DNA of 64,000 nucleotides from Siphonodentalium dalli (taxonomy: Eukaryota > Mollusca > Scaphopoda > Gadilida > Siphonodentaliidae), in assembly GCA_032622095.1 (NCBI GenBank), contig CP136061.1, forward strand, positions 52,215,762 to 52,279,761. Direction: 5' to 3'. Below, in pieces: positions 27,802 through 63,044 of the stretch (the first letter of the stretch is position 1; every line of letters begins with the position of its first letter). A program made the position numbers and the translations under genes. The notes under the pieces are model-generated. The model saw nothing but the letters and a program-made list of their open reading frames with translations. It was not told the DNA's origin and did not search any database.

Positions 27802-27911
27802 GTGACCACGTGTGTTGTGAATTCTTGATCAATCGAACTGAAATATAATAAGGTGCAGATGTTAGCGTATAATAAATACCCTGTGCGCATTTCGCAGAAA
27901 GAGGAGGAAGT

Positions 27912-27918
27912 CTATATA
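27912..27918 (+). promoter_or_regulatory. Possible TATA box of the NOF-like gene
   Basis: CTATATACC lies about 66-72 bases upstream of the ATG at 27,984 and only ~110 bases from the right end of the hAT-type MITE. Position and sequence suit a core promoter, but there is no other support. Confidence 0.35.
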
Positions 27919-27983
27919 CCTTGCAGCATGCGAGCATATATATAATAACAAGGAAAAACAGGTGTGTGCAACTTAGTGTGAAA

Positions 27984-30697: not shown

Positions 30698-33416
30698 TTG
30701 GCAAATAATTATGACGGCCTGAAGTCAGATGGGGAGGTTCTTAACATGACAGAGAAGTGGGCAAAGAGAGACAAAAGGAAAAAGTCAAAATATTTCAGCC
30801 CAAGCGGACCTGACGTACAATTCAGTGTACAAGATATAGACACATCCAGAAACCAGTTTCAGTTCCGATCGTTCAACTGTCCGCCATGGGGAGGGTCCTT
30901 CAAAGGGAACTCTGGGAAATATGTAAACTTGACCAATACATGCCCCATTGACAATATGTTGTTCATATTATATTATATCACGAGGTCTCGAACCGATATT
31001 GATACTAAACTCCGTTTTATGAACATCAGCAAGGTAAATATATTGATGGACGTTCTAGAAAAGTTTTCGAAAGGCAAATGGTACGAAGGAAAGCGGCTGT
31101 GGCTCCAGAATGTTTGTGGTTTTAAAGAGCATCCCAGGACCACTGAGTGGGATGTTTGGGGCTCAGAAGAAGAGCATATTCTCGAACATCTTGATGTCAT
31201 CCAGGAGCGAGTTTGGACAAGCACATGTGACAGTGATACGTGTCCCGTCAAAACAAGAATTCGGCGTAGCAGAGGCATTTCGCTGAGGTAGCTATTATGA
31301 TTAGTATATTATATTATATGCAGTGTCATGTGATGACCGTGAAACATTGCAGGCGTAGACAACCAGTTAACATTTTACGTACGACATGATTTCAAAGACA
31401 ATGGCTTTTACCAAAATTAATTTCCAAAATACCTATACACACCATGCATAGTATAGATAGGGGATCTCCAACGAGTTATTTTGGGATATAAGAATTTATG
31501 AAACGATTTTGATCAATTTGATTTACAACGAGTCGTAGACGGATTGTGAATCAAATTTATGAAACGAGTTTCATAAAATGTTATATCCCAACATAAAAGG
31601 TTGAAGATCTTGTATATTGCATGGAAACATATAGCGCTTGATGCCATTTTAACAACTCAAAATCCTTAAAAGAAGATGCAAAATGGCGGAGACGTTTAAC
31701 ATACGACAGTATTGCGCTCTGGGGCTTGCGATGGAAAATGTAGTCCCCAATTTCTTCGTTTTTGTTTTATGGTTTATGGCAATTATGCCAAAGGGGATGT
31801 CAGGAATGATAACTTATTGGCAAGGTCCGCAAGAACCACATCGAGCAGGCAGATAAAAACCCGCGTGATGCATCGACTGGTAACTGGAAGGCGTGAACCC
31901 ACGGCTATCTAAAAGTCAACAAAAACAGTTAGGATAGTAGATCGGTTGATTATTCATCGGTTATGTGAAGTTTTAATTATGCGATAATAGTATAAGGCAT
32001 TTACATGTATATATTGAGTATACAGAGAAGTTACACACCCATAGTTACACAAATATAGATAAAGGTCATCGTAGCATGCATTGGATGAGTATATATACCT
32101 GTAGTTCCCGATAAATATAGTTAAAGGTCATCGTAGTGTGCATTGGATGAGAATATATACATGTAGTTCCCGATAAATATAGTTAAAGGTCATCGTAGTA
32201 TATTAGATGTATGGATATTGTTTGCAAATTCCCAAATATATGTTTATGACGTATATTACCCCATTTCCATCCATAGTTATGATGCATAGTAACCCTCCCC
32301 ATTTATGTATGATGTATACGACGCCCATCTTACAGTTATCATGTATATCACTCCTTTCCCATTTCATAGTTAAGTTTTATGCCAACACGTTAACGTGTAT
32401 GTCAGATATGATAATTTGGGCAAACTATATATAGTTGAAGGTTATCGTCTCTTATTGGACGAGCAGTTACTCATAATATCGTTAAGGGTTATCGTTGCCC
32501 ATAGGATGAAAATTGTTAGTAAATTCATAAATATATGGATAGAGTTAAATGGTTTCAATAGATGCATACATACAGCAACAGTTTATCGCTGTTAGATATT
32601 ATATATTTTGATTTTATAACCCTTATTATAAATGGCACACCTTTTCTGGTGGTATGTTTATGTATATGTTTATTGTTATGCAGTGTTTGACTATCAGTAT
32701 ATCCTGATGGTTTTGGAGGAAAAATAATTAACCCATTTTGGAAAATGTTTACTAAGACCATGGCCAAAAGATAGCATTTATAAAGTTGGGATCGAAAAAA
32801 CTATACCAGCAAAGAGTTCTCAAGAGCGTAACTCTGGTATATCAGACATCAAATACAGCCTGTTTGTGTGATAGGTTTCGGCCCTTAACGCTCTATTGGG
32901 TCAGGCGTTTGATCACTATTCTAACTACACTTGTAGAGCTCATATATTCCACCCAAAATCTAGGAATTATTTTTAATTCTGGCAGGGAAACTTGATATTG
33001 AACAAATAACGCAGGGAACGTATTTTTGTTTAATACAAACTTATTCATCTAATATATTTTACATAGAGTGAAGATACCTACTCGAGATTGCATGAATTGT
33101 GCGACTATTTTGAGCTGATTTCGCCATGCGTCTGTCACTAACTTGAAACACTCCTGTGTGCTCATTCCGGCAACATAACTTTTTTATGTGGAAGGCAAGG
33201 CAGAAACTCCTAATTGTTTATACAACGTATTCTGATTACAGGTACAGAATCGTGGCGTTTACTTCTTTGTCAAATGGCCACATCACAGCCCAGGTGAAGG
33301 ATGTGTCAAGAGATCTCTGGTACAAATACGACGGGAATCGGGACAGGAAACTTAGAAAAATAAGAGAGTTAGATTTCAGTAGCGTTGACAACCTTATATT
33401 GGAGGAAATCGTTTGA
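30698..33416 (+). CDS. Cysteine-protease-like C-terminal module of the NOF-like gene (two exons)
   Basis: The segment continues in the same frame as the transposase after a single TGA, to a donor at 31,287/31,288 (CTGAG|GTAGCT, phase 2). The matching acceptor is TGATTACAG at 33,241, and exon 33,242-33,416 continues YRIVAFTSLSNGHITAQV, then LWYKYDGN, and ends at TGA. The two exons together supply a likely Cys (NLTNTCPIDNMLF, codon at 30,941), His (SNGHITA) and Asp (WYKYDG), in the order Cys-His-Asp of papain-fold deubiquitinase-like peptidases. The exact family is uncertain. The first ATG after the TGA encodes MTEKWAKR (30,746). The module is either reached by read-through, spliced, or stranded by a nonsense mutation. 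The 1.95-kb intron holds short repeats and one palindrome. Confidence 0.55.
31455..31612. mobile_element. Short palindromic MITE-like element in the intron
   Basis: The arms GATCTCCAACGAGTTATTTT/GGGATATAAG and CTTATATCCC-like/GGTTGAAGATC pair imperfectly, with the repeated AATTTATGAAACGA motif inside. A related structure with GATCTACAACGAGTCCCC arms is at about 41,550-41,705. No target duplication was verified. Confidence 0.45.
32050..32205 (+). repeat. ~72-bp tandem repeat (2.3 copies)
   Basis: The unit is ATAGTTAAAGGTCATCGTAG, then GCATTGGATGAGAATATATAC and TGTAGTTCCCGATAA. More diverged copies of GTTGAAGGTTATCG are seen near 32,432 and 32,480. It lies in the intron of the NOF-like gene. 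Confidence 0.7.
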
Positions 33417-45772: not shown

Positions 45773-45783
45773 ATAGCATCACT
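45773..45783. repeat. 11-bp target-site duplication of the 104-bp palindromic element, left copy
   Basis: ATAGCATCACT here is repeated exactly at 63,034-63,044, immediately outside the two ends of the short palindromic element that the large MULE later entered. Confidence 0.75.
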
Positions 45784-45792
45784 GGACTAGAT
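45784..45792. repeat. 9-bp target-site duplication of the MULE, left copy
   Basis: GGACTAGAT directly precedes the first base of the terminal inverted repeat. The exact copy follows the last base at 62,930-62,938. Nine bases is the typical Mutator-superfamily value. Confidence 0.93.
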
Positions 45793-46118
45793 GCAGAAAG
45801 TTGGATATTGAAGGAGTCGTCCGCCAACTTGACCTTTGTGATTTGACCTTTAGCATTCCGCGCAATATTTCGACCGCCATTCTTAACTCTTTAGAGCGGT
45901 AGGTTTGAAGATATTTTCTGTTGGATATTTTTGTATTTTTGAACAGAAAAATGACTAATAATCTTCATAAAACTACGACAGATAGTATCCGTATAAATTT
46001 GTCGCCAATAATGCGTAATTGTTGGGGCCTATACTCTATTATAGCCATGATAAATTATAATTATAAATGTTTATTGACCGTAATTTAACGACTTCTGAAT
46101 TTGTCAATATTGACATTG
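45793..46118 (+). repeat. Left terminal inverted repeat of the MULE
   Basis: Pairs with 62,603-62,929. It contains CCGCCATTCTTAAC (a near match, on the opposite strand, to the YY1-type AANATGGCGG motif) and three short GACCTTT direct repeats. Transposase binding sites and promoters of MULE genes usually lie in these repeats. Nothing here shows which bases are used. Confidence 0.9.
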
Positions 46119-46496
46119 AAATGATTGCTGATTAAGTCAAAGTCATGTTATTTAATTAATGCTGTTTTGCGTAAATTATATTAGGGCCGTGTCAATTAAT
46201 GTAAAAAATGCTCAATATGTAAGGTAGGCTCACCCAATTTCTTAATGATATTATTAGTAGTATATTAATTAGTCTAGTGCCCCTTCAAGTTCAAGTTCAA
46301 TTAATTTAAATTTTGAAATCTAATATTAGTATTACTATAGTCATCTGATTTTGAGGTAAACATCACCTGTTAGTATTAAATAAACAATAATAATAATAAT
46401 AATTACATGGCACTCTCCAGATATTAAAACTATAATAAAAGCTACCATATTTATATGTTTTCAACTGATATAATATACCATATGCTCTTTGTTACT

Positions 46497-46640
46497 TTAA
46501 AGGTACCGGTACCTTACTCAATCCGATTAATCATTAAGCACCCCTAAATTACTATTTATTTTCCAATCAATTATTTTTACCCCCCACCCAAAGCCAAAGA
46601 AATAGTAATTTATGAGGGTCTGATCGGATTGAGTACCTTC
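46497..46640. mobile_element. ~145-bp MITE-like palindrome inside the MULE
   Basis: The left arm CTTACTCAATCCGATTAATC and CTAAATTACTATTT pair with the right arm AAATAGTAATTTATGAGG and GATCGGATTGAGTACC. A fragment of the same family is at about 11,300-11,720. I found no clear target duplication. Confidence 0.55.
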
Positions 46641-46674
46641 AACTATTGCTCATTATTACTATTGGTGCTTCTTT

Positions 46675-46880
46675 AAAGTGATGTGAAACACTCCAGTAGG
46701 GTGAACAAATAGAAATGAGGATAATTTTGCTCAAACTTTATTTATGTGTACAAATAATAAATCCAAACTGACAACACACACCGTCATTAGTATATATTAA
46801 TTAAATTCAGTGACTCTCGATGGTGAAATAATTTTTGGCAATTTATCGCCAATTGTTGTGCCCCGAAATCTAGAACTGGA
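46675..46880 (+). repeat. Dispersed repeat inside the MULE
   Basis: The same block order as 8320-8520 in reverse complement: AGTGATGTGAAACACTCCAG, GGGTGAACAAATAGAAATGA, CACACCGTCATTAG and AATTAAATTCAGTGACTC. It shows that interspersed elements have entered the MULE or were mobilised with it. Confidence 0.65.
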
Positions 46881-47236
46881 AGTGAATATTTACAATTGAG
46901 CTTAGTTCAAGTGATGTTTTCTGTGGAGGGGTAACGTCTATTCGCTTGAGATTTTCTGTGACGTAGTAGAATGCCATATTCCTCCAGTTGGATATAAAAT
47001 ACTGTCTAAATACTGAATTAACAGTTTAACACACCCGAACAAGTGTAAGATTATTTGAGGTAAATACTAGTAGTACATATCCTTTGACAGTTCCCATGTC
47101 ATTTTACATCTGTGCACTAATTTTGTAGTAAATTTCTCACCAGTAATGATGGTATGTTGAATAATACTCTATTTATATAACACTAATTATTTTCTCTTTT
47201 TTTATTTTTCAGTCATAATCATCAAACAAATTTAAC

Positions 47237-50200
47237 ATGAATTACATCAGTGCTGGAAAGCTGACTGAGTAAACAAAAATAAATATGATTTATATATAGG
47301 GCATTAGTGGGGGGAGTTCTTGAAATATTTAATATTTATAGCCAGATCATCCTGTCCAAATTTTTAATTTAATATGTAAATAGTGGCTGGAGGCTCTGTC
47401 CAAAATTTTAAATATGTAAATAGTTGTCGCAGGCTCTTTCCAATTTTTTAAATATGTAAATAATGGCCGGAGGCTCTGTCCAAAATCTTAAATATGTAAA
47501 TAGTGGCCGGAGGTTCTGTCCAAATTTTTAAATATGTAAATAGTGGCCGGAGGCTCTGTCCAAAATTTAAATATGTAAATAGTGGCCGGAGGCTCTTCAA
47601 ATTTTTAAATATGTAAATAGTTGTTGCAGGCTCTCCAATTTTTTGAATATGTAAATACTGCCTGAAGGCTCTGTCCAAATGTTTTAATATGTAAATAGTG
47701 GCCGGAGGCTCTGTCCAAATTTTTAAATATGTAAATAGTGGCCAGAGGCTCTGTCCAAAATCTAAATATGTAAATAGTGGCCAGAGGCTCTTTAAATTTT
47801 TTAATATGTAAATAGTTGTTGCAGGCTCTTTCCAATTTTTTAAATATGTAAATACTGCCTGGAGGCTCTGTCCAAATGTTTAACTATGTAAATAGTGGCC
47901 AGAGGCTGTCCAAATTTATATATATATAAAATAATGCCTGCAGACTGTCCACTCCATCCCCATAATTTGAAATGTTCATTTGTCCATCAAATGTCCATTA
48001 TATTCAAATATATTTGTACAATCCATTTGTGTTATAATTAACTGGATGTTTCCTAATTAATCTTTGGACAAATATGTTTTTTGGAAACAAATTGCATCAC
48101 ATGTTTTTTGTTCTACTTTAAACGACCCACCCGCTCTGGCACCCCTTCGACCTGTATGGAATTTTTTTTGTGGAACCCTCCACCCCGTGTTCATGTTATT
48201 AACATCTTTTTTTTTAGCAACCTTCTATTTATTCTTTGTTCAGCAAAATATGGGATATCATATAGAATGTCACAATGTTGATTATGTCAATAATAATGTA
48301 TTACTCTTATAATATTTGTTGTGATACCGATGACAGATACTCATGTAGTTTCGCAACACCTAACTGTTCTACTTTCACCATTGGTTTTGGATATTAACAA
48401 TAAAGTCTTGCTTTAGTGTTTCTACTAGATGAAACACGCTCCCTTTGGTATAGGGTAAATCCCTAGTAAGATGAAAATTAATTAATTAAATTTAACTAGG
48501 AAGTTAGTAACATTATGCTGGATGTGCTTACTTGTAAACAATCTGATCTAAAGTGACAATAATTAACCACCAATCATATCTTTGCTGAATATTTGGAATA
48601 CATGCTGATTGAAACTTCATTCCTGCTTATTGAAGATTATATGGTTATTTGTTCATTTCAGCTGCCAAGGCCCCCACCATATGGCAATTTTGTGGGACGG
48701 TACGGCGAATGGAAAGTCTATGAGATAGGCAGATTAACAGAGGTAGGCACTTCAAAGTTATACTAGTCTAAAATAACAATATGTTTTTATCACTTTTTAA
48801 GTGCAACGATCTATATTTATATATATAACTAGCAGGTTGGCCCGCCACTGGCGTGGTTGGTCAGAAACATGACATTTTTTGTTTTTGAATGAGTTAATTG
48901 TGCCTTTTTAATCAAGAGAAATTACGGTACCCTTCCCTAAAAGAGGTATGATTTAAGGTACATCGGGCGGAAAAAACTGACCCGATGAAAATTTCCCCCG
49001 TTCCTAGGAATGACAGACATAAGAATCACACAACACGCATTTTTGGTTTCCAATGAGTTAATTATGTGTTTTTAATCTAGAGGAATTATGATACCCGTCC
49101 CTAAAAGAAGTATGCCAACAATGTCGTTGTTGGCATTCACAGCTTGGGGGCCACCCGAAGATTCTCACATTGCCGTAAAGAGAAAATAGCATTGTGTGTA
49201 TTTAGTAATTATCCCTCGCCAAATTGAATATTTGCGGGGGATATAGTAATGGGTTCCGATCATTCGTCTGTCTGTCCGTCCTGAATTTTAAAAGTCATAC
49301 CTTGAACAAATGTCTACGGATTTCAAAGAATATAAGTTCACCTGACCATTACCTAGAATGAGTTTGCAAGCCAGGTCCAGTCGGATATTTTTACCGGAGT
49401 TATTGGACTTTGTTTATTATTTTTGTCGAATTTACCAAATTCACCAATGCACTTCCCCAACTGCACATTTCGGCGGGGGATACCGCCGTCTGCGACTGCT
49501 TGTTATATTTAATAACTGGATGGGAGAATATGTTTAGCATAGAAAGGGTAGACTATTCAAATGGATACTGTTATAACTGAATAGGTTTACTGTTATTTTA
49601 CTGATCGTTGAATCTGTTCTTTTCAGAGTGAGGCACCAATACCAGCATCACTACCGGCGACCACTTCAGCTGCTCAACTCACTAATGTATCACATTCTCC
49701 AGTTGCTATGAGACAAGTGATGGCTGCCCAACCATCAATCCCATCTGCAAGTGAAGGTAGAATCTTAGACAAGCGTCGAATCCAAGAGCTGGTCAAAGAG
49801 GTTGATCCATTGGAACAACTGGATGATGATGTGGAAGAGGTATGCCTGATATATTAATATTGTATTATGTTTATGGCTTGCTGTAATAATGTCAGAAATA
49901 CATGTAGCAATACTGGCAGTATTCTTTTAAACATTTCATTTACACTAAATACTCGTTGAAGAGTACAGGCAGTTCCCTTGGAAATATTCTGACTGTCCAA
50001 TTCATGCTCAATACATACAATTTATGGTATATGTCAGAAAACAGGTTTCCTAAAATATTGGCCTGGAACCCTGACTACATCTTTAACCCTCTGTTTACTA
50101 AATCCTCATTGACGAATACTGCAGTTCAAAAATCAATATTTGATAACTCTGAGCTTTGATGGTGGGTTCCTCGACTCGAATCAGATACTTTTTACCCCTG

Positions 50201-53200
50201 AAGCCAGATGTTCACTACTATGAGGACATTCTGATTAGTATTCAATCATCTCGTTCGGGTTTTCTGCTCTAGAGTTTTTAATCTTTCTTCTCAAAAGTAG
50301 TGACTTATGCTGTGTATTCTTAATTTTTAGAATGTTGCATATGATGGAGCCAATCGCAATCTTGGGCCTTCCATACCAGTTTTAGGTGAGTTGAATACTA
50401 TATCTCTTAGTTCATACCCTTATTAAATTTATCAGACATAAATCACAATAAAGGTAGCTATAGTATCAGCAAAGGTGACAGTTTTGGATTGAACTTAACT
50501 GACAATGGTGTGGAATAAATACAGAACACAATATTCAATCAAATGAATCGGCATAACTTCAGTTATAGTAAAGCTGTAAAAAATCGACTCCTTGACAACA
50601 GCAGATAACAGCCCTCATAATTGGCTACAGCAATCAGCAATGCCGAAGCCATTTGCTGAAGCAAACTGGGCCATGGTAAAGGGTTGCCGAAGCCAAACAA
50701 TCTGAATTAAAAGGGCTGGCAGAATTATGGGTAACTTTTCGATGAGAGCTTTCTGGTGAATGGCAACAAACCATATTTCCGACTAAATCCTGAAAAGTTA
50801 CCCATAATTCTGCTGTGGTTATGGAGTCGATTACAGAAGGGCTTTGCTGTATGGGCGGCCTATCACAAAAATATTTCCGGCAACATGCATCGATAATACC
50901 AGTGTAATCCTTTATAATGGACATCTAATGAATGATTGTACATTTAGGGTTCAACAAATAATTTCACTGGATGGGAAAAATGATAACTATAGTCACAGAA
51001 GCTGATGTTGACTAATACTTTTGTTGACAATTCAGATTGCAGACATACATTTTGGCCCATACCTGCAAAGTGAGGATGAGTTTCAAGGATCACTTGTACA
51101 CGCAAAGAAAAATAAAATAGCAGCAATAATGAGTGAAGTAAGTGAACGGGAATTTGTGAAAAGTTAAATATTGGTTTATGCATAAACATTTCTATTTCAT
51201 TGCACAAAAGAAATGGTCAGTGGTATGATCTTTCGCAGTTTGTCACAACCGTTAATTGGAAATCTATAAATATATATTTTGGGACTTTTGTCTGTCTGTT
51301 AGCTATGGCCGGGAAACTGCCAGATGGATTTGGATGAAATTTGACACCTAGGGCTAATTTTTTCCAGGTAGTATTTTGGATGGGTCAGATCATTACCCCG
51401 ACCTGACCTTGACCTTAAAAATTGTCAATTCAAGGTCAAATCGCCAATTTTGACGAACTTTGATACCTAGGGTTACTTTTGTCTGAGGAGTGTTTTGGAC
51501 TGGTCAAATCGTTACCCCGACCTGACCTTGACTAATATATATTTTGGGACTTCTGTCTGTTTGTCTGTTAGCTATGGCTGGGAAAACTGCCTGACGGATT
51601 TTGATGAAATTTGATACCTAGGGTTACTTTGGTCCACGGAGTGTTTTGGATGGGTCAAAGCAGAGGGAAAACACCCCGAATGAAGTCGGGTCCACCAGCT
51701 AGTCAAATATGTAATCGACATGTACAAATCAACTATTTTTATATTGATTTACGCTCCCGTTATAACTTTTGGGTGCCAAAACCAAAATGGTGTTTTTAGA
51801 CCAACAGCAGGAACTTATCTCAATTGCTGTTTTTATACACATTCATATGAAATCCCTCCCTCAACAGTCCTCAATATAATAAAATATCTTAATAAAATTG
51901 ATTGTCTTGTAGGGATTAAAGATAATGGGTAGAACCCATATACACTTCACTGAATTTGGGAAGACAGGTGAGCCTACATGCAGACATAATTATACTATCA
52001 GGATATGTCACACCACCCCATTTCTGTTACTCACTATTACGTACACTAGATGATGTCTTACGAGATATTTTCCGATTGTATATTTCTGATGTATTTTATT
52101 TTCTGACTCAAATAAAAGCGAATGGGAATCTAGTATTTCTTTTATTATTTAGAATTTTTAGATATGTAACAAGACAGACTCAGAATCATTTAGAATTTTA
52201 TTGTAGGTGAAGATACATGTTACCTTTAAAGGCACAGATGACCTTCACAATGGATATGCTATTAAAATTGGTCAAATCCATTAAACCCACCATAACAAGA
52301 AAGAATATTACAATATTGACAGATCATGTCCTTAATATACCAATCATCAATATTGAGTAAATAGCATGTTTTTGTCAAGTTTTACACTTTATTATGTAAA
52401 CATCCATGCCTTTAAATATAAGAATGTTTATATCATAGCAACGCGATAATATCATTTTTTTTATATCACTCTTTTATTTCTATTCAAGGATATAAAATGG
52501 GTACAGACTGTCTGGTCACGGTTGATTTTAAAAAATGCAATTCATGTGAGTGGATATTAAAGACATATTATGTTTTCATAACCAAATTTAAAGACATGAG
52601 TGGAAGGACAAAAATGTAACATTCTCAGATGAACAAAGAGGGATAACTCTAGAATGAAAAATGCAAATAACACAGCTGAACCATCATTTGAAAGCGTTCT
52701 TGATGCCAGACCTCCATATCAAGTTTCACAGAATCAAATAACCCATGACTGAGATATATGGGTAGAAAGATGGAAATCTAACATTTTCAGATAAACAAAT
52801 GTTTTTTTGGAAGGGGGGGGGATATAAAAATGAGCTTGTTAAGCCTTGTTTTAGTTTATGAATAGAACCTGGTGTGAAACGTTCTACTTGTTGAGGTTAC
52901 GAGCATTTTGCCTCTTCACAATACAAACCGTTCTTGCCATCAGTGGCAGCTAGCTCGCAGGCAAGTATGACTTGCCAAACAGTAGTATTTCAACCAGGCT
53001 CTGCTCATATTTCAATCCATGAACTGAATTTCTTATGGTATGCTCCAGCCAATTAAATTTTGTGTTCAAAAGGACCATATAGAGACCAGCCAAGAAGTTT
53101 AAAATTGGGAGAAGTTACTTCCCTCTATTTGATTATTGTAATTGAAAAATCAAGTAATACATGTAGCTAGGCTTAATTTGTTTGGCTCAGGAACAGATTG

Positions 53201-53428
53201 AACCGATAATTTATATGCATCATATTGACAATTCAGCAAATTGTCATACACTGAAATTGTAACTTATCACATTAATATTTTCTTATTGCAGTCGGTATCA
53301 AATTTCAAAGAAGAAACGGATGTGTGATTGTATCACGGGGTGATGAATCAGGAAAAATACCACCAGTGTGCCTATCATCAGTGGTCGAGCTCCCACGGCG
53401 GAGACATTTATTCTTTAAAAGAAATTAA
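47237..53428 (+). CDS. MULE cargo gene: TAF12 histone-fold fragment fused to KptA/TRPT1-like domain (238 aa, eight exons)
   Basis: Exons: 47,237-47,268 (ATG), 48,670-48,742, 49,627-49,839, 50,331-50,385, 51,043-51,137, 51,913-51,967, 52,489-52,545 and 53,292-53,428. All introns are GT-AG and every phase joins, giving a closed 239-codon frame. The first junction is the least certain: an alternative acceptor at 48,661 opens 27 codons without an ATG. Exon 3 carries RILDKRRIQELVKEVDP and EQLDDDVEE, the diagnostic start of the TAF12 histone fold; the rest of that fold is absent. Exons 5-8 give SLVHAKKNKIAAIMSEGL, then KIMGRTHIHF, then GTDCLVTVDF, then FGIKFQRRNGCVIVSRG and GKIPPVC. This follows the NAD-binding lobe of KptA/Tpt1 RNA 2'-phosphotransferases (H-G-T, R-x-H-I-H-F, G-R-x-x-C, D-G-I-x-F and N-G-V motifs). 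H-G-T is H-A-K here, the arginine of the G-x-R motif is not evident, and the N-terminal R-H lobe is missing. Catalysis is therefore doubtful. It is most simply a captured and fused pair of host genes. Confidence 0.8.
47380..47945. repeat. ~42-bp minisatellite in the first cargo-gene intron (about 13 copies)
   Basis: The unit is AAATATGTAAATAGTGGCC followed by GGAGGCTCTGTCCAAATTTT, with TTGTTGCAGGCTCTTTCC variants. Open frames on the minus strand (47,448-47,835) simply follow the repeat. Each unit contains GGCTCTNTCC and a pyrimidine run. Confidence 0.9.
49627..49839 (+). other. TAF12: Captured TAF12 exon within the MULE
   Basis: This 71-codon exon is bounded by TTTTCAG and GAG|GTATGC. Its last 27 residues match the beginning of the TAF12 histone fold (alpha-1 and first loop), and the first 44 residues are the low-complexity Ala/Pro/Ser/Gln-rich type that precedes the fold in metazoan TAF12. 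In TFIID and SAGA, TAF12 pairs with TAF4 or ADA1 through the complete fold. Here the exon that should follow (beginning M-L-x-Q-I-A-D-D) is replaced by NVAYDGANRN, so the fold is truncated. Confidence 0.85.
51260..51710 (+). repeat. ~260-bp direct duplication in intron 5
   Basis: TATATTTTGGGACTTTTGTC, GTTAGCTATGGCCGGGAAA, CTGCCAGATGGATTTGGATG and TTTGACACCTAGGG occur at about 51,272-51,365 and again at about 51,535-51,625, with ACCCCGACCTGACCTTGAC between. A relative of the 3' part is at about 49,230-49,330. It looks like an old interspersed repeat. Confidence 0.6.
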
Positions 53429-55958
53429 ATTGTAATTTTATTATCTGTGTAATTTATTTTCAACTAAATTGATGAATATATTAAATTATTTTCATTTGAT
53501 CAAGAACGTGTTCAAGAATTTTGACATCCAGCTATAATCAGCTATTTCTTCATGGTTCAATAACTAATATACTATACAATGTATTCTTCATATTAAATCA
53601 GCAAGTCTTCCCCTTTCATTGGAAGATCGCTCTCATTTATATGAGAGAGGGCCCTAGCACTCAGATGGTACCGCGGGCAACATGCGCTTGATACCATATG
53701 AGCTTAAGTGGTATTCTTGCTTGAGAGTACAAATGTACCTTATTATCTCAATATTTCTATGGAATCAACAAGTGATGTTCAAAAACGTTAATCACAGGAA
53801 ATTGATTTTTATTTAAGTTTGCACATTTTCTGTACCCAAATCTGAAAAAAAATAAAATAATAAACAACTCTAAAATGTGAACATCACCAACATTTAACTG
53901 AAAGGCCTTGTGGTGGTAAATGCCCATTGTAAATTTCATTGCGATCTGACAACCCATAACTATTATTCAGGACTATTATTCAGGTGGTCAAACAAAGACC
54001 AATGCACTATATTGTCCAGATAGACAGTTCAAAGTTCAAAAGCTTTATTTATAAAGTCAGGCATTTTAAATTACAAACATGAGCATTAAGCTCTTAACTG
54101 ACTTGTAAAACAATGAATATGTACATAAACAGTAACGTGAATAAAACACAACCTATCTGAAAAATAAATTACATGTATATTAGCTAAAACTTTGTAAAAG
54201 ACGAGTAAAATCCCTGAGGACAGGTAGCCCTGACTGGATCAAAAGCGTAAGACACAAATTTGTATATTCATATACGGCACAGTAATGTGCACAATGAGTC
54301 CATATTTCATTCCTGGATAACACGTTTTGTTCCATTCAGAGATACCCGACCAGAGAGTGCGGATTAAAATACAAAACATATGCATATAATTAGGATATCC
54401 TACAGGCACAGACGGATAAAGTCAATCCAGTTTAATCCCCAATTTTATTTGAATAGTGGAGGTAATGGTATATATACAATAATGAAGAATACCGCTTGTG
54501 ACTAGTTGTTCTATGTATTCTGGCCATTTGTTGTTGGTATGATCTAAAATTGAACTCTGATTTCCATGCCATTATTAATCTTTCAATTGTGTTGGCCTAT
54601 CTTCCATAGCACAATGAATATTAAATAAGACAATATCGTTTTGACAAATGCCCATTCTACATAGTTTCAGGATGCTTTCATTTAATGACTCTAAAGTAAA
54701 TTCACTCTTTCATTTCTGACAGACTGTTAAGACAGTATGTCCTGTAATTAAAATGGACATCAGTTTCCATCTCATTAATTTCCTTTTAACAAATGGCTCA
54801 GAACAAATTATTAGTATAAATTTGTTAGGGTATTAGTAACAGTGTTAGTAGTGTGTTTCAGATGTTAGAGCTGCCCATAGGGTACTCACTTCCCCTTGAG
54901 CCTCACAGTCTTGTGAGTCAAGCCCTATGTTAATATATCGGGCTCACCAAATGGCACTCATCCAGACTCATGGATGCAGCCCATGTTAATAGCGTTAGTG
55001 GCATATGTTCTAAACCGGGTGGTAAGATTTGTGTTGTAGTGTGTTTAATGGAGTAGTCAGTTGTGCAATTTGTTAGCTTTAAAGGCACACATAATATTTT
55101 TCTAGAGCTCATGAACAGTTTGAGCATTTTAATTTGTGTTAGCTCGTCAGCTTGACCTAATTAAGTTAAGCCATATTGTAAATGTCATATGGATAGTGTA
55201 AAGGTAGTCATAGTATCAATGAAGGTGACAGTAATGGATTAAATTTATCTGACACAACAATGTAGAATAAATACAGAACACAAATTACATCATAATCTTA
55301 AAACTTTTATCGAAATAGCTGTGCACGGCGCATAGTTAGATTTATATATCCTTGCGCTATCCACTACTCATTCAATAAAAGAGTCTCGATTGAGATGCAC
55401 GTTGTCTTCTGTCTATATCTTCAACAAATGTCTCAATATTATGTATGACTTTAATTAAATGAATCACTTACCTACATAATCACTCCCTACATCACACAAA
55501 TGGAAATTGTTTCAAGCAGGAACATTGAGTAAGGAATCAAGAGGTACCGACAATAATAGCTATGATAGTTACTTTATTCCCATTGATTCATTTGTAGGAA
55601 TATCATTTAGATAAAATGATTATGTCCAAACAATGTTCCCATTAGCATCAATTCCCATTTGTAGGAAGTAGCGAGTGATAACACTGAGAATAAGGGATGA
55701 GTGGGGTTAGTAATATTCCTTCTGCATTCCACCTAGTCACACATGGTAATGCACATGATACATACCTAATGATATCATAAACGAGTCTAGTCTGTTGTTA
55801 CTCACCTGTAGCAGCAGTGTTGTGATTACCCCACCCCTTTTACGCGTGATTTATTATTAAGCTCCTCTAGAAGTAGAGCAAGCAGTTTCCTAGATGTTCT
55901 TTTTTAAGCGTGTTTTATGATTATAATTAAGCTCCCCTAGACATCGAGTAGTCATATC
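53429..55958. other. Non-coding between the convergent cargo and transposase genes
   Basis: No exon is supported. A segment at about 54,030-54,110 (AGTTCAAAGTTCAAAAGCTT then TATTTATAAAGTCAGG) resembles the 3' end of a retroposed repeat. A short stretch near 55,200-55,290 repeats part of 50,455-50,530 (GGTAGTCATAGTATCA then AAGGTGACAGT). Confidence 0.5.
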
Positions 55959-58900
55959 TTAGGCTAGCTCATCAGCACAACCTATACATTTCCAATCTTT
56001 TTCTTTGGGTTCTTTTGTGATTGCTACACACTTCCAATGAAACCATTTTTTGCATGTTCCACACTCAACAGATTGAAGGTCATCTTTCCTAGGTTTCCAT
56101 CTGCAGGCCCTCTTACATACAGGGCAGGTCCATTTCAACAGATCTGATGGCTTTGTTTCATTTTTCTCTGTTTTATTATGTTTCCATGTAGCTAAATTTT
56201 GCAACCCTGCATGGCCCTTCTTATCTTTGAGTACTTCCAGTGCTTCTTCCGATGTTGCAAGTTTGAGATCTGCTAAATCTTGACTGGCTGTGACTGAGTT
56301 ACTGCTACCTGCAGAACCATTATTGTTAGTTCTTGTCATCCTTCCTTCATCTTGATTGTCATCGGTGTTGGAAACTGATCTTGACACAGATACCAGTTTT
56401 GCTTGCTCCTTGTGTGCAATAACTTTTCTGGAATGGTACTTATTGATATGTCTGTTCATTAATGCCATGTTAAGGAAATGTGCATCCTTTATCCCATCAC
56501 ACAAGCAGACAGTACAGTACAACAGGTTAATTCTGTATTTAATTGAATAATGCTTGTATAACTGATTCTCAGTACTGCAGGCATATGGAGGCATTTCACC
56601 ATTTTCAACACATATACCACATGTATATGGTTTTGCAACAAGAGTGTTGTTAAATACACAGTGATCTTTCTTTTTCTTATTTTTTGCTGGTTCAGAATTA
56701 TCTATCTCGGTTTCTGACTGCCCCTCATGATCATCAACAGCTCTTATTGGCAACAAACAGGTATTTATCTTCTCATTCAATTTCAAGGAATTTTCCACCA
56801 CAGAAGAGAAACTGATGCCACGTTTTGAAACTCTCTGCCGCTTCCTACCTCCATGTCTCTCACTAGCTTTATCCGGAAAATCCACATTGGGCCTATATGG
56901 ATCAAGAGGACCTTCCTCTGTGTCATCTTGAATCACTAGGGCATACCTCTCTTGTACTGAGCCCTCTTGTCTTCTGAAACCCATGTTGTGTGGGTGTCTT
57001 TTTGCCAATGTTCCTCTTGGTAGCTTCATTCCACGATGACTCTCATCATGCAACACTTTCAATATTCTGCCTCTGGAAGCATTTTCCAATTCCTCGAAGT
57101 CCGCAACATGAGATATCCTCTTCAAGTTTTGTATAATAACATCTGTACTATCAAGTCCAGCAGGCACATTCACTTCGCCAATAGTTTTGTTTTGTTTTTG
57201 CCTATTAAATCTGAAGGTCTTGAAAGCTTCCAGTAAGGTGTGCTCATTTTGTATACATTCTCTTTGAGCTAGACATGCATACATGTGCTTGCAAAAATAA
57301 GGCTGTCCCATAACTATGAAATAATTACATGTACATATTCCCAGGTTGATATTGACAATATGAACTTCTCCCTTAATTTTTTCAACAAATTCATCTGGGA
57401 GTATTGCACAAATGTATTCATAGAATATCCTAGAAGCGGCTATGTCTAAATTTGAAATTGCCCTTTTGCATTTGGTAACAATGTCATAGGTATGCTCATC
57501 ATTCCCATTGGTAATCTGGCTATGATTTCTCTCTTCCAATTCTTCGTCTGGTTCAAGTGTACCATCAAAAAATTCATCTGGCAAATCTTTCTTACTGTGT
57601 GAATCTGACTCACTTCTGACCAATGCCCAACCATCAGTTTTGCTCCATTCTACTATGAGGCCTCTTTGCATGAGGCTTATACCACGCTTACATACTTTGA
57701 GCTCTTTCACTTTGCCTCGGATATTTCTCTTTCTCACTTGTTTTCTCACTTGTGATAGCTGCATATTTTGCTGAGTGGCTACTATATCATCATCAATTAT
57801 GCTATTCATTAAAGTCAGTGTAAATGTGCATATCAGCCGATTAAGATGGCCTCCAAAATATGTCTCATCAACATCTTTGAATTTCCTTTCTGTCACATTA
57901 TCAGTCAAAAGTAGTGGATTGGTCTGCTCCGTTTCTTCAACAGCATACATACACTCAGCAGACATAGGTTCATGCCATGGGAAAGAGAACCAATGTTTAT
58001 TTAAATATGCAACCAGTTTACTCCTGTTTTCCTCGGACAGAAGCCAATCTGGTATCTCTTTTTCTATGAAGTCAATCAGCCTCTTTGTCACATACTGCCT
58101 GGAGTTTTGATCCCAACACCTCATTACACATTTAAGTCCTGTCTCCAGTGGTCGTGTTAAAAGCCGCAACTCCTCTTCTTCATTCAAATGCCTGCGAAAA
58201 GCCTGTACGGCATGGAAGTTGCACAGTATTGATTTCAAGTTATTACTCATAACTCCATTCAATAATGCCCTGTCTTTGTCATGTTGAAAAAATGGCTGAA
58301 TTTGGTTTTTGAATGAACATGGTTTCAATCGGAAAAAGCCGTTGCCATCATTGAAGATGTACAACTCTGTAGGGTGAAGGCATTTCTCGTCAGTGCATGG
58401 TACGTTTGCTAACATTAGCTGAATTGTTCTGGCATGGATATGCTGCTCATCTGAATTGGATACAGATGCGACTACAAGATGGCCAGCATTCATACTATCA
58501 CAATAGGTAATGAAGGCAGTTTTAAAACGAACTGCATTGAAGTCATGTTTCACATCAAGACCAAGAACTGCTTTGCCAAAAGTTCTCAAATAATTCAGAG
58601 ACTCATTCTTTGCTACAACATACTGATAGTCTCTTCCTATGACCATCGAACCTCGCTGGAAAAGCAACACAGAGTCAAAGTTGCTTTGAATTAGGTTCTC
58701 TGTTCTCCGCCAGTCAGACATTATATCATTTTCTTTCATACTGATTTTGATAAAACCTTTGTCTACATATTTCACCCGGTTGCGTACTTGGTCCAGATAA
58801 TGTATTTTACCATCTGCGTCTGGTTTTATAAGAAGCAGCTTTTCTTGATTATTACCTGCAGAGATTATTTGTTTTGCTGTTGCTTTGAAAGATAGTCGCT

Positions 58901-60140
58901 GTTTGTCCCACGAGTCTCTTGTTGTGAGACTAGCTCGCTTGTTTCCCTGGTTTGCTTCTACACTGTGATAAGAGCCATTTTTCACACCTTTATAAATGGT
59001 CCATTTTGAGATATCATTACTATATATAACCAATTTCAGTTTCCAACCACAGGCTAAGTGTTTTCCATGAACTGCCCGAGTGATATTTGAAGTTTGGTTC
59101 ATCAATGTCATTGGACGGTCACAGTGATATTTCCACATGTGCAAGTAACAAGCATTGCACAGTATCCTCCCCACACTGTCTTTCCTAAAGTTGTGATCAT
59201 AATCCACCATGCAATGTTCACATTGGCTTTGTACTTCTTCTAATTTAACTTGGCATGATGGACATTCTTTTGTTGCTATAGTAACGTTCAGACTTCTTCT
59301 TAGTGCAAAGCACTCTGTTCTGCATGTATCTGACTTAGAACCACATGCAACATGCAAGCATACTACTGGAGTAATTGCATCATCAGTATATGTACCTTCT
59401 TCAAAGCTATATGTTTCATCAAAGCGGTGTGTTTTCCCCCACTTTTCATTATCTGTAACAGCTACTTTCATGGCACCACAATGCTCATTGTGATCGATTT
59501 GTATGCCCTTGTCTACTAAATAGTGTTTGTTGACATCAAACAAAAATTTGTCAAAATAGTACTTTGTTTGTAATCCAACTTCTAACTTACCATATTCAAT
59601 CCATAATTTGTTGGTCACTTCATATCTCACCCAATCTGCAGCATCTTCTTCCAAGAATTGTCTGATCTCCTCATTAGCTACAGTGTCATTTTTTCCTTCA
59701 TCTGAGCACTTGAAGTTCTTGCTCATTCTCTTACCATCTTTGAGTCTCACCTCAACCTGCATAAAATTATGTTTTTTGGACTTCCTGTATGATATCAATG
59801 GCTTTCCAAATGTCAGATCTTCCAGACTACTGTTCTCATTTGAAAGGGCCTCCTGGTACTCCTTCTCCATATTTGCAGATTTCAAATTTTCCACTAGCTC
59901 CTGACATTCATCTGTTGACAAATATTGATTGATTTTTGTGATAGCCTCATCATCCTTCAATCCAAGCTCAGTACATGCAAACTGTTTGCTCAAAGCTGAT
60001 TCACAGAATCTAATGTGCAGATATAATGTTAGTCTCTTATTCCTAAATCTTACTTCAGGTTTTCCAGACAAAACTGTGCTTAATTTATCAGGTACTATTA
60101 CACCATTATTCCTCTTATCAGATTTTCCTGTACTTGTCGA
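55959..60140 (-). CDS. MULE transposase with GATA-like, SWIM, C2H2 and PHD fingers
   Basis: The frame is open from a TAG at 60,143 and has no ATG for about 90 codons; it overlaps the end of the protease gene in the -1 frame by 43 bases. Numbering from a TTG at 60,071 (1370 residues): a GATA-type finger C284-x2-C287-x17-C305-x2-C308 ending LCNACYLHMWKYHCDRP; the DDE core D506 (VLGLDVKHD), D575 (YIFNDGNGF), C617-x-x-H620 (ILCNFHAVQAF) and probable E728 (TDNVTERKF); SWIM finger C913/C915/C927/H929 (ICTCNYF, YFCKHMYAC); a C2H2 finger C1186-C1189-H1208-H1213; and a C-terminal PHD finger C1316/C1319/C1337/C1340/H1345/C1348/C1362/C1365. The enzyme should bind the terminal inverted repeats and cut and rejoin DNA in the nucleus. 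The PHD finger suggests recognition of histone H3 tails and so possible chromatin targeting. All catalytic residues are present and the frame is uninterrupted, so it may be functional. Confidence 0.9.
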   Translation of the reverse strand, partial: STSTGKSDKRNNGVIVPDKLSTVLSGKPEVRFRNKRLTLYLHIRFCESALSKQFACTELGLKDDEAITKINQYLSTDECQELVENLKSANMEKEYQEALSNENSSLEDLTFGKPLISYRKSKKHNFMQVEVRLKDGKRMSKNFKCSDEGKNDTVANEEIRQFLEEDAADWVRYEVTNKLWIEYGKLEVGLQTKYYFDKFLFDVNKHYLVDKGIQIDHNEHCGAMKVAVTDNEKWGKTHRFDETYSFEEGTYTDDAITPVVCLHVACGSKSDTCRTECFALRRSLNVTIATKECPSCQVKLEEVQSQCEHCMVDYDHNFRKDSVGRILCNACYLHMWKYHCDRPMTLMNQTSNITRAVHGKHLACGWKLKLVIYSNDISKWTIYKGVKNGSYHSVEANQGNKRASLTTRDSWDKQRLSFKATAKQIISAGNNQEKLLLIKPDADGKIHYLDQVRNRVKYVDKGFIKISMKENDIMSDWRRTENLIQSNFDSVLLFQRGSMVIGRDYQYVVAKNESLNYLRTFGKAVLGLDVKHDFNAVRFKTAFITYCDSMNAGHLVVASVSNSDEQHIHARTIQLMLANVPCTDEKCLHPTELYIFNDGNGFFRLKPCSFKNQIQPFFQHDKDRALLNGVMSNNLKSILCNFHAVQAFRRHLNEEEELRLLTRPLETGLKCVMRCWDQNSRQYVTKRLIDFIEKEIPDWLLSEENRSKLVAYLNKHWFSFPWHEPMSAECMYAVEETEQTNPLLLTDNVTERKFKDVDETYFGGHLNRLICTFTLTLMNSIIDDDIVATQQNMQLSQVRKQVRKRNIRGKVKELKVCKRGISLMQRGLIVEWSKTDGWALVRSESDSHSKKDLPDEFFDGTLEPDEELEERNHSQITNGNDEHTYDIVTKCKRAISNLDIAASRIFYEYICAILPDEFVEKIKGEVHIVNINLGICTCNYFIVMGQPYFCKHMYACLAQRECIQNEHTLLEAFKTFRFNRQKQNKTIGEVNVPAGLDSTDVIIQNLKRISHVADFEELENASRGRILKVLHDESHRGMKLPRGTLAKRHPHNMGFRRQEGSVQERYALVIQDDTEEGPLDPYRPNVDFPDKASERHGGRKRQRVSKRGISFSSVVENSLKLNEKINTCLLPIRAVDDHEGQSETEIDNSEPAKNKKKKDHCVFNNTLVAKPYTCGICVENGEMPPYACSTENQLYKHYSIKYRINLLYCTVCLCDGIKDAHFLNMALMNRHINKYHSRKVIAHKEQAKLVSVSRSVSNTDDNQDEGRMTRTNNNGSAGSSNSVTASQDLADLKLATSEEALEVLKDKKGHAGLQNLATWKHNKTEKNETKPSDLLKWTCPVCKRACRWKPRKDDLQSVECGTCKKWFHWKCVAITKEPKEKDWKCIGCADELA

Positions 60141-61465
60141 CTATGTATCTTGGCCTGCTGTGGTATTTCATTCACATCTGACACTGAGTCACTGAAATCT
60201 GGTGAATCATTTGTCTCCTGTCCTTCTACATATGATTGGACCTGACTATTTGTTTGATACACATGCTCCAGATTCACAACACCATCCATGAGCCAATTCA
60301 GTGTAACAAATCTCATAAAATGTGAGAATCCACTGCATGATCTGAGGTATGTCAGATGTTGATTATCAGCTATGTCGTGACTACAAAGTGCATAAAACTT
60401 TGGTATGTCTAAAGCTGCAACACTTGCTGTTACTACAAGAACTGGTCCACAAACATTAGAGCATTCCTGTTTTGGATAATGAGGTGAGCAATTTGAAGAA
60501 CAGTAATGTCCTATTTCACTTGTTTGCTCAGGGTCATGGCAGTATATCAATTCTGGCGATGGAATTCCCCATTTGGCAAGAATTCCTGCTATGTTTGTCA
60601 ATACGTCTTGCGGACAGGGCCATCCTTTGGTGTCTGCATAAATCACAGTATTATTACTACATGAGTATACTGCCATTGAGTAATGGTTGCCATGCTTCAC
60701 AGTAATTTCTCCATGTTCATCAAACTGTGCTATATTTAGAAAAGTCTGGTCCTTATGCAATCCTACATGCAACATGAATACCAAAGTCTGGCAATCAATA
60801 AATGGATTGTTTCCAAATCTTCTCTCCAATTCAGATATATATCTGTCACAGCTGAACCCCACCATCATAGATTCAACATATGCACTTTTAGCTTGACTGT
60901 TTAAAATTTCTGAAATTCCATTGAATATTGCATTGTCAAACCATTCATCACCTAATAAGGTCAATGCATCATGTACTTTTATCCTGCATTTGGGAAATTC
61001 TACTGCAGCTTTCATTGTATTTGATATCATAGTTGAGCCAAAATTTCGAATTTTTCCATAGTCCATTGAACGATAACAGTTTGGTGCAGCAAACTCTATT
61101 TTAAGCCATGACATGTACTTTGAGCACTTACTTTTCATAATTTTTACTTTATGCAGCTGAAGAAATGCATCTATCTGTTTGAAATCATACACACCATAAT
61201 CTAGTGCTGCCAATGTATTCTCATTTTTCTGGAGAACAGACATGATATTATCTAACTGATCAATACTTGGCATGAATGGTGATTCTGCTGCTAGATCACA
61301 ATCTGTGTCATGACTGTCAATTATTTTCCAATTCTCTGAGTCTAATGTTTCAGGTATGAATAAATGCTTATACATACATATAGCCAGTGTTTCTTCCAAT
61401 CTCAACAAATCCAGTTGCTTCCCATCGGATCCATCCACTAACTTCACCAATGTAGAAGACGCCAT
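60098..61465 (-). CDS. Ulp1-like (C48 family) cysteine protease of the MULE (455 aa)
   Basis: The start ATG at 61,465 follows a good acceptor-like sequence (CTTTATTTCTCAG) about 20 bases upstream, so a 5' untranslated exon is likely. The N-terminal 160 residues are unrecognised. The catalytic domain runs from about residue 165 (LLGDEWFDNAI, the substrate-groove W-L-x-D-x-x-I type motif) and carries H261 (GNHYSMAVY), D278 (VIYADTKGW), Q333 and C339 in the Q-x5-C-G spacing of Ulp1/SENP enzymes. All four key residues are intact. Such proteases cleave SUMO or related modifiers and accompany several MULE groups, where their role in transposition is not settled. The stop TAA at 60,098 overlaps the transposase frame, so the two proteins may be made as a fusion by -1 frameshifting, by splicing, or by re-initiation. 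Confidence 0.82.
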   Translation of the reverse strand: MASSTLVKLVDGSDGKQLDLLRLEETLAICMYKHLFIPETLDSENWKIIDSHDTDCDLAAESPFMPSIDQLDNIMSVLQKNENTLAALDYGVYDFKQIDAFLQLHKVKIMKSKCSKYMSWLKIEFAAPNCYRSMDYGKIRNFGSTMISNTMKAAVEFPKCRIKVHDALTLLGDEWFDNAIFNGISEILNSQAKSAYVESMMVGFSCDRYISELERRFGNNPFIDCQTLVFMLHVGLHKDQTFLNIAQFDEHGEITVKHGNHYSMAVYSCSNNTVIYADTKGWPCPQDVLTNIAGILAKWGIPSPELIYCHDPEQTSEIGHYCSSNCSPHYPKQECSNVCGPVLVVTASVAALDIPKFYALCSHDIADNQHLTYLRSCSGFSHFMRFVTLNWLMDGVVNLEHVYQTNSQVQSYVEGQETNDSPDFSDSVSDVNEIPQQAKIHSRQVQENLIRGIMV

Positions 61466-62602
61466 AATTAATTCTGGGTATCTGAGAAATAAAGATCAAT
61501 GAAGAATAATTAATAATGATATATAAAATACAACTCGTAGTAGTACTACTACTACTAGTCAAAATGAATGTGGAAATGGCCTTAAATTAAAATGATCATT
61601 TAATCATGATTTATGACAGTCTCCACCCATTTATTTAATTTTTAAATGTACTACTAGTCGTATACTAATAGTAATACTATTAACTACAGTAAAAGGGGCC
61701 CCCACCCCACCCCCCATGGAATACCACTTAATACAGAGGGTGGAATACGGAATACCAGTTAACAGCCATATGGAATACATAAAAATATATGAAAACTTCA
61801 TTTTTTGGAAGGTCGGCGTACGAATACCGGTATATTTGGAATACCGAATACCTCCTAACAGAGGGGCCGGAATACGGCGTACCTCATAACAGGGCATGGA
61901 ATACGGTGTACGAAAGGGGGGGGGGTCACGGGGGTGGGGGCCTCGTAAAACTTCAAAGCTTTGTTTTGGTCTACTTCAACTTACTTCAAGTTCAAGTGCA
62001 ATAAAAAAAATTCATGTTAAATAAATATAGTTTTCACTATATTAAGACTATAGTATAAAACAGTTTAACTAATTAAATAATTTAAAATAGGCTTTCAAAC
62101 CACAAGTGACAATGACATGCAATATCATATGTGGCATTAATTTAATTAGTTTAATGTACATTTGAATAATGTACATGTATCCCCAGTCTATTCACCAATG
62201 TTCTAGTAACTTCTAGACTAAAGCCTACTAAAGTAAAGGCTGCAAATATAAATTAATAATATAATGGATGAATCATATTAAATGGACAGTCTTGAGAATG
62301 GAGTCTACGAGTTACTCAGTTAGTATTAAATTAATAGTAATACTAATACTACTACTAGTAATAGTTATTATAGTAATTAGTAGTAGTACGACTACATTTA
62401 CAGTTAAAAGAATTTAGAAATAGAAATATTGAATGATCATAATGAAGATTGAAGTAACACTCTTCTTATATCAGAGTTAGACAGAGTCAAACATGAGTAA
62501 ATCATTCAATATTTACACAAAAAACAGCATTAATAACATGACATTGAATGATTGAGTCAATGTAATGTACAGCATTAATAACATGACATTGAATGATTGA
62601 GT
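61466..62602. other. 5' region of the MULE protease-transposase genes
   Basis: Non-coding, AT-rich. It contains a GGAATACC-type repeat (about 61,715-61,910) with a poly-G run, and two 48-bp direct repeats at about 62,552-62,612 (CAGCATTAATAACATGACAT, then TGAATGATTGAGTCAATG). The promoter of the minus-strand genes presumably lies here or in the right inverted repeat. Confidence 0.55.
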
Positions 62603-62929
62603 CAATGTCAATAATGATAAATTCAGAAGTCGTCGATAAACATTTATAATTATCATTTATCATGGCTATAATAGCGTATAGGCTCCAATAATTACGCAGA
62701 ATTGGCGACAAGTTAATACGGATACTATCTGTCGTAGTTTTATGAAGATTATTAGTCAATTTTCTGTTCAAAAATACAAAAATATCCAACAGAAAATATC
62801 TTCAAACCTACCGCTCCCAGGAGTTAAGAATGGCGGTCAAAATATTGCGCGCAATGCTAAAGGTCAAATCGCAAAGGTCGGCACAAAGGTCAAGTTGGCG
62901 GACGACTCCTTCAATATCCAACTTTCTGC
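62603..62929 (-). repeat. Right terminal inverted repeat of the MULE
   Basis: The reverse complement starts GCAGAAAGTTGGATATTG and follows the left repeat to GACATTG. Compared with the left copy it has an extra CCGACCTTTGYG-like dodecamer and several substitutions, and lacks about 10 bases of TAATTTAACG. Confidence 0.9.
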
Positions 62930-63033
62930 GGACTAGATACTGGCTCTATGACGCTCCGACGCTCTGCTCTGTTCGCCGTCATGACGGCGTGCATAGTGTA
63001 ACGACGTAGCCTCATAGAGCCAGCGTCTAGTCC
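62930..63033. mobile_element. 104-bp palindromic mini-element, target of the MULE insertion
   Basis: The left arm GGACTAGAT..TGGCTCTATGA pairs with the right arm TCATAGAGCCAGCGTCTAGTCC (reverse complement starts GGACTAGACGCTGGCTC). The centre is GC-rich with GCCGTCATGACGGC. If the MULE and one copy of its 9-bp duplication are removed, the element is flanked on both sides by ATAGCATCACT. A tiny MITE with an 11-bp duplication, possibly itself MULE-mobilised, is the simplest reading. Confidence 0.72.
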
Positions 63034-63044
63034 ATAGCATCACT

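Follow-up and report, generated by a model that had tools for sequence, protein, structure and literature searches.

The window analysed here, a 64,000-nucleotide stretch of the genome of the scaphopod Siphonodentalium dalli (contig C1, positions 52215762-52279761; the genome spans 2.2 Gb in 9 contigs), contains a transposon resembling Mutator-like elements (MULEs) that carries, next to its transposase gene, exons related to TRPT1, the animal member of the Tpt1/KptA family, and to TAF12. We consider it probable that the transposon family has long possessed an accessory gene derived from TRPT1, that a piece of the host TAF12 gene was inserted into this gene recently, and that the window copy has lost the exon for the RNA-binding lobe. 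These relationships were assessed in a sample of 19 copies of the element, the window copy (copy A) and 18 others fetched whole or in part.

The original prediction, made from the letters of the window, had joined eight exons into a fusion of two captured host genes, the last four encoding the NAD-binding lobe of KptA/TRPT1. This last assignment is borne out by the match of the window product to PF01885 (KptA; E 8e-9, 36.2 bits against a cut-off of 26), which covers profile positions 92-176 of 177. Searching the genome with the 238-aa product gave 18 loci for exon 8 and 17 for exon 2, counting the window in both cases. The N-terminal RNA lobe of Tpt1/KptA is missing from the window, whereas most of it is present in eight of the 19 copies (C, D, E, L, P, R, S and V; damaged in E, P and S). 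In copy D, the RNA-lobe exon reads DGFVN..VRATHGHGPQND, and the protein that includes it matches PF01885 at positions 28-175 (E 1.8e-15). The exon was not seen in A, B, H, I, O, M, G, Q, F, U and W, among which the full interval was read only in A, B, H, M, O and G. A related gene on contig C2 (F2a) matches PF01885 with an E-value of 1.3e-24; it neighbours a transposase of 51% identity, and its location, orientation and exon phases are those of the accessory gene. Place and orientation suggest that these KptA exons and the transposase belong to one element.

Two TRPT1-like loci, on contigs C6 and C9, which we take to be host genes, both have an RNA-lobe exon that starts in phase 1 and ends in phase 0, and the phases of exon 5 (0-0, C6) and exon 6 (0-1, C6 and C9) are as in the transposon. 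Because these phases are common to the TRPT1-like loci and the transposon, an origin from a host TRPT1 gene acquired together with its introns is most likely. For exons 5-8, the ratio of nonsynonymous to synonymous substitution rates (dN/dS) is between 0.095 and 0.327 in 19 of 25 pairs of copies, with saturated dS in five pairs and no replacement change in one (A-B); for the RNA-lobe exon, it ranges from 0.118 to 0.453 in six pairs.

The catalytic residues are only partly retained. The complete Arg-His-Arg-Arg tetrad described for Tpt1 (excerpt of PMC6333775) was not found: the window has no RNA lobe, the exon with the first Arg-His was not identified, and, with residues placed by alignment, an Arg occupies the RA.xGH place in D and F2a whereas no fourth Arg was recognized in A or H, its presence in F2a being uncertain. 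The H-G-T motif of the NAD lobe reads HAK in the window, with the loss of the Thr, and HAT in B, D, E, H, L and P. Copies A and H have diverged far more in the KptA part than in the transposase or on the left side of the element; this contrast makes some exchange between subfamilies likely, in addition to deletion.

The TAF12 component has a different history. Its histone-fold start had been recognized in the original prediction, and the fragment is confirmed by DNA identity to the host gene, although the match to PF03847 (TAF12; E 2e-4) is below the cut-off and covers profile positions 2-24, that is 23 of 68, so that the fold is incomplete in the window. The host TAF12 gene is located at C1:192.70 Mb, with exons in two of the loci examined (L006 and L001). 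The exon together with the downstream intron is 88.6% identical to it over 526 bp (E 1e-175), and the sequence upstream of the exon is 93.5% identical over 93 bp; this DNA match, far beyond chance, settles the identity of the fragment. Within the host gene, the next matching exon of TAF12 follows at a distance of about 5.4 kb, and the genome contains no other match to it. Apart from the host gene, the search with the 238-aa product found the TAF12 exon only in the window and in copies B (C4:152.88 Mb), H and I. Copy Q retains the captured TAF12 intron only, and copies O and P have the same intron of the accessory gene without TAF12, P being decayed further on. To judge from these alignments, TAF12 is a recent DNA-level capture, an exon with intron on both sides, in one element lineage.

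In contrast to exons 5-8, no constraint is seen on the TAF12 exon. Between the host gene and copy A, the exon diverges by 3.3% and the intron by 6.5%, a twofold difference that constraint on the host side alone would produce. Between copies A and H, the exon (4/138, 2.9%) diverges as much as the intron (14/449, 3.1%), and hence there is no sign of selection on it; exons 2-4 combined differ at 11 of 265 positions (4.2%) and the introns at 44 of 1876 (2.3%). The proposal that the fragment acts as a decoy for TAF4 or ADA1 is therefore unlikely, given also the 23 of 68 profile positions.

Thus, of the two captures proposed originally, that of TAF12 stands, whereas, judged by comparison of copies, the KptA/TRPT1 part is the resident, older gene of the family and not a capture by the window copy. 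The two parts arrived separately, because the latter shows low dN/dS, TRPT1-like phases and a counterpart in F2a, next to the 51% identical transposase, and TAF12 is present in four copies only.

The frame of the window gene reflects these events. The predicted exons do close into a frame of 717 nt, or 239 codons (47237-47268, 48670-48742, 49627-49839, 50331-50385, 51043-51137, 51913-51967, 52489-52545 and 53292-53428); however, two of the seven junctions use acceptors outside the gene model supported by the other copies. The ancestral exon-2 acceptor, an AG at 48661/48662, is present in eight of the nine copies listed, the window included (copy C is cut there). The exon-1 donor reads ACT/GTGAGT, in phase 0, in H, G and S, and has two bases fewer in A, B, O, P, R and Q; because these two bases are missing in the window, the closed frame requires an acceptor 8 nt inside exon 2, whose AG occurs in A, B, H and I and is missing in P, S, O and R. 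The exon-5 acceptor of the family is in phase 0 at 51035/51036, and the one originally predicted lies 7 nt inside the exon. Use of both ancestral acceptors brings the window frame to a stop at codon 33, and use of the ancestral exon-5 acceptor alone to one at codon 137; with exon 4 skipped and exon 2 as predicted, 222 codons are open. In H, the ancestral sites lead to a stop at codon 113.

Exon 4 is found also in B, H, I, O and Q and, in diverged form, in S. Since it ends in phase 1 and exon 5 starts in phase 0, the junction between them is out of frame without the RNA-lobe exon; in O and Q, the phase of exon 4 is different because the exon is 77 and 72 nt long, respectively. The sequence that begins at 50530-50535 in the window is preceded in copies C and D, about 300 bp to its left, by the RNA-lobe exon. 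The break at 50530 was initially read as recombination between two subfamilies, a reading replaced by deletion once the RNA-lobe exon of copy C was found there. The deletion length is uncertain, because the corresponding stretch measures about 6.5 kb in C, possibly with an additional insertion there, and less in P. The alignment of copies suggests the ancestral order exon 1-exon 2-exon 4-RNA lobe-exon 5-exon 6-exon 7-exon 8. The frame is broken at the ancestral splice sites because the RNA-lobe exon was lost, and the notion that the gene has been kept open is accordingly weak for the window copy, which appears to be a degraded derivative that most likely does not yield an active enzyme.

The transposon itself was predicted to be a precisely bounded MULE, and its boundaries are precise: terminal inverted repeats (TIRs) of 286 and 298 bp, within the Rehavkus/MULE range of 26-400 bp, are flanked on both sides by a perfect 9-bp target site duplication (TSD), GGACTAGAT. 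Copy H, on contig C2, shares these ends and is flanked by a different perfect 9-bp TSD, AACTTCGCT; the window copy and H are the two copies in which the ends were examined. A minisatellite is located about 1.3 kb inside the TIR, 3' of the minus-strand transposase. The description of the element as autonomous fits the window copy, where the transposase is split into open reading frames (ORFs) of 1393 and 465 aa, less well than it does H (C2:148.72 Mb) and I (C1:261.36 Mb), each with a single open frame of 1856 aa; these two copies are 99.3-99.4% identical over the 6.4 kb compared. The window transposase shows a weak PHD finger match (PF00628, 23 bits against a cut-off of 24, E 8e-5); among the other transposase proteins scanned, the match is above the cut-off in one (L043, 24.8 bits), reaches 19.8 bits in another (L044), and was absent in the Pfam scan of two more (L045, which is incomplete, and L046). 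Invariant D, C..H and E residues are shared by six transposase proteins, two of which are near-identical. None of the five transposase proteins scanned had a Pfam MULE match, and the fold predicted for the transposase core from six sequences (mean pLDDT, the predicted local distance difference test score, of 44) was too poor for a fold search; for these reasons, we assign the element no further than MULE-like and nearest to Rehavkus, which it resembles by its list of traits, a likeness to a published description rather than to a Rehavkus sequence.

Taken together, these data suggest the following scenario, in which the TRPT1 origin is based on homology, matching exon phases and low dN/dS. A Rehavkus/MULE-like transposon would have taken in, long ago, a host TRPT1 gene with its introns, in convergent orientation to the transposase, and selection would have maintained it as an accessory NAD+-dependent enzyme of some use to the element. 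Later, about 0.63 kb of host TAF12, an exon with intron on either side, would have taken the place of part of the intron separating exons 2 and 4 in one lineage, and because the TAF12 exon is in phase 0-0 and brought its own splice sites, it could be spliced in with the frame intact. The window copy would then have lost the RNA-lobe exon through internal deletion, so that what remains could yield a fusion of TAF12 with the NAD lobe only through exon skipping or through acceptors outside the ancestral model. Several observations weigh against this scenario. A KptA match beside the transposase was convincing only for F2a among four related transposases, the 10 kb read next to each of the other three (L040-L042; 52, 46 and 35% identity) giving none; an exon for KptA profile positions 1-27 was not found in the copies examined, and the whole accessory gene is intact in no copy at hand, several having been fetched in part; the dN/dS pairs share branches, and hence are not independent, and include decayed copies. 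Furthermore, H and I are recent copies with an open transposase, skipping exon 4 or using the acceptor 7 nt downstream leaves the fusion arrangement of H open over its whole length, exons 1 to 8, and each of the three exon indels in the A-H alignment has a length divisible by three (75, 9 and 3 nt), as has a fourth in exon 5, compared to 3 of 10 intron indels, which hints at a constraint on the frame.

The observations on H, on I and on the indels, along with the closed frame of the window and the same arrangement being open in H, speak for the original prediction, a spliced TAF12-KptA fusion protein that would be made by the element and retained for its function. We nevertheless regard a functional fusion as improbable: the window copy as well as H and I need non-ancestral acceptors or exon skipping to encode it, the TAF12 exon diverges much as the intron does between A and H and exons 2-4 together diverge more than the introns, the lower exon divergence between host and A is expected from constraint on the host alone, the TAF12 fold is incomplete, and no exon 8 was found in the part of copy B that was fetched. 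A fusion transcript may nonetheless be made, more probably in H and I than in the window. Inclusion of the TAF12 exon could instead give a small protein (112 aa in H) that terminates shortly downstream of exon 4 and lacks the NAD lobe. The stops reached from the ancestral splice sites in H and in the window are consistent with such a product, which we still consider rather doubtful, given that the frame break stems from the loss of the RNA-lobe exon and not from the capture; O, M and G likewise showed no RNA-lobe exon, yet carry no TAF12 exon.

A more serious contender, although not the one we favour, is that the accessory gene is dead throughout the family, the low dN/dS recording selection that preceded amplification and TAF12 being passenger DNA. 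The absence of a wholly intact gene among the copies at hand and the intron-like rate of the TAF12 exon between copies fit this possibility; against it, H retains all splice dinucleotides and open exons, with 63-79% identity to A for each of exons 5-8, and the family has been read in part only. On balance, we prefer the scenario of an old TRPT1-derived accessory gene, a recent TAF12 insertion and loss of the RNA lobe in the window copy. An extension of it, in which TRPT1 serves as a lasting NAD+-dependent accessory enzyme acting on RNA or DNA ends of transposition or on host silencing RNAs, and the TAF12 segment of H and I replaces the RNA lobe and steers the NAD lobe to transcription complexes, appears very improbable.

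Table. Features of the transposon in the window (window coordinates)
Feature	Position	Strand	Evidence
Whole transposon, 17.1 kb	45793-62929		Inverted repeats and 9-bp TSD at both ends
Left TSD, GGACTAGAT	45784-45792		Identical 9 bp at 62930-62938
Left TIR, starts GCAGAAAGTTGG	45793-46078	+	94-100% complementary to right TIR
Exon 1 (start codon)	47237-47268	+	Donor CTGA/GTAAAC here; nine copies compared, window included
Minisatellite, 40-bp unit, 14.6 copies	47352-47930	+	3' side relative to transposase
Exon 2	48662-48742 (ancestral acceptor; predicted frame needs 48670)	+	AG before CTRCC in 8/9 copies
Host TAF12 DNA, intron-exon-intron	49493-50127	+	88.6% and 93.5% identity to host TAF12 locus (L006)
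Exon 3, TAF12, 71 codons, phase 0-0	49627-49839	+	PF03847 E 2e-4; identity to host exon DNA
Exon 4, before lost RNA-lobe exon, phase 0-1	50331-50385	+	Comparison of copies
Deletion junction, RNA-lobe exon removed, 6-bp overlap	50530-50535		Comparison with copies C and D
Exon 5, NAD lobe	51036-51137 (ancestral acceptor; predicted start 51043)	+	PF01885; acceptor common to copies
Exon 6, RTHIHF motif	51913-51967	+	PF01885 match and copies
Exon 7	52489-52545	+	PF01885 match and copies
Exon 8, NGCVIVSRG..IPP, stop	53292-53428	+	Matches at 18 loci, window included
Transposase-like ORF, 1393 aa, C-terminal PHD finger	55959-60140	-	PF00628 E 8e-5; homologues in genome
N-terminal part of transposase in other frame, 465 aa	60098-61495	-	Comparison with H and I
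Right TIR	62632-62929	-	Complementarity to left TIR
Right TSD, GGACTAGAT	62930-62938		Perfect match to left TSD

Other KptA-like sequences are present in the genome. On C7, C1, C2, C3 and C5 (L007-L014), ORFs reaching 1492 aa encode a complete KptA domain (E 5e-48), followed by a TatD DNase domain (E 3e-8) in two of the eight loci scanned; these multi-copy ORFs are near-identical between contigs and probably represent a retroelement or another mobile family. Such retroelement ORFs were considered as the source of the intron phases shared with the transposon and rejected, being uninterrupted. Among the matches listed, 14 loci contain an 83-aa open frame at approximately profile positions 95-143, and our guess is that they form one family; the only one fetched, L053 (C7:17344000-17348500), contains a further KptA-like exon, LVHMTKWENVLSILDVGVKKMGRTYVHL, and an upstream piece, WFRAEQGHTVKV.

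The window includes additional repeats and ORFs. An 11-bp repeat, ATAGCATCACT, was initially taken as the TSD and was rejected because it flanks a small palindromic repeat that apparently hosts the insertion: the palindromic repeat has ATAGCATCACT as its own direct repeat at 45773-45783 and 63034-63044, and the transposon seems to be inserted inside it. A 384-bp repeat inside the element (54026-54409) occurs with 98-99% identity at 19 places among the matches listed, on 8 of the 9 contigs, and is absent from that position in copy D. Elsewhere in the window, a 344-aa open frame on the minus strand (16619-17653) encodes tandem C2H2 zinc fingers (PF13465, E 5.5e-26), and three plus-strand ORFs in a row (27876-31291; 330, 635 and 197 aa) have no Pfam match at E 0.01 and are possibly another transposon gene.

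The main interest of this element lies in the long-kept TRPT1-like accessory gene more than in the TAF12 fusion. If this reading is correct, the retention by selection of a TRPT1-like gene in an animal transposon would connect RNA-end or ADP-ribosylation chemistry with DNA transposition, and metazoan TRPT1, the loss of which in mouse is reported to have no phenotype (excerpt of PMC6333775), would gain a new context for testing. Because TRPT1 and some PARPs are reported to ADP-ribosylate RNA (excerpt of PMC9458441), it is a reasonable guess, by analogy, that the intact accessory gene would act on nucleic-acid ends. With both its host source and introns lacking the insert available, the TAF12 piece provides a clean example of stepwise gene capture in an animal. 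In a literature search of incomplete coverage, no DNA transposon was reported to carry a KptA/TRPT1 gene; no text contained Rehavkus and phosphotransferase together, and no transposon-borne KptA appeared in the titles and opening parts of abstracts.

Pack-MULEs, also described as transduplication, capture pieces of host genes at the DNA level in plants. The element described here shares with them a host exon with introns captured at the DNA level between TIRs. It differs in carrying transposase ORFs, a single open frame in H and I, whereas Pack-MULEs are defined as non-autonomous elements without a transposase that carry host gene fragments (excerpt of PMC6446971), and in that its second gene is old and common to the family. 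In the same excerpt, MULE accessory genes are known mainly from plants, and Rehavkus is presented as an outgroup of MULEs with TIRs, a PHD finger, a minisatellite before the 3' TIR and a 9-bp TSD, compared to 8-11 bp for MULEs. All these traits, the TIR length included and the PHD finger as a weak match, are shared with the present element; Rehavkus as described there has one ORF and no enzyme gene, whereas here there are a second, TRPT1-like gene and a captured TAF12 piece. Relative to Tpt1/KptA/TRPT1 (PF01885; excerpt of PMC6333775), RNA-lobe and NAD-lobe homology is found in other copies and that of the NAD lobe in the window, which lacks the RNA lobe, has a changed H-G-T motif and is transposon-borne. 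Gene capture by an animal DNA transposon is already in print: Turmoil-1 of C. elegans contains pieces of the host genes rsp-2 and cpg-3 (excerpt of PMC2572040). The two elements have in common pieces of two host genes in an animal DNA transposon, one of them with an intron; Turmoil-1 belongs to another superfamily, Harbinger, and has another layout, with the pieces in its inverted terminal repeats, and a long-kept enzyme gene is not described in that excerpt.

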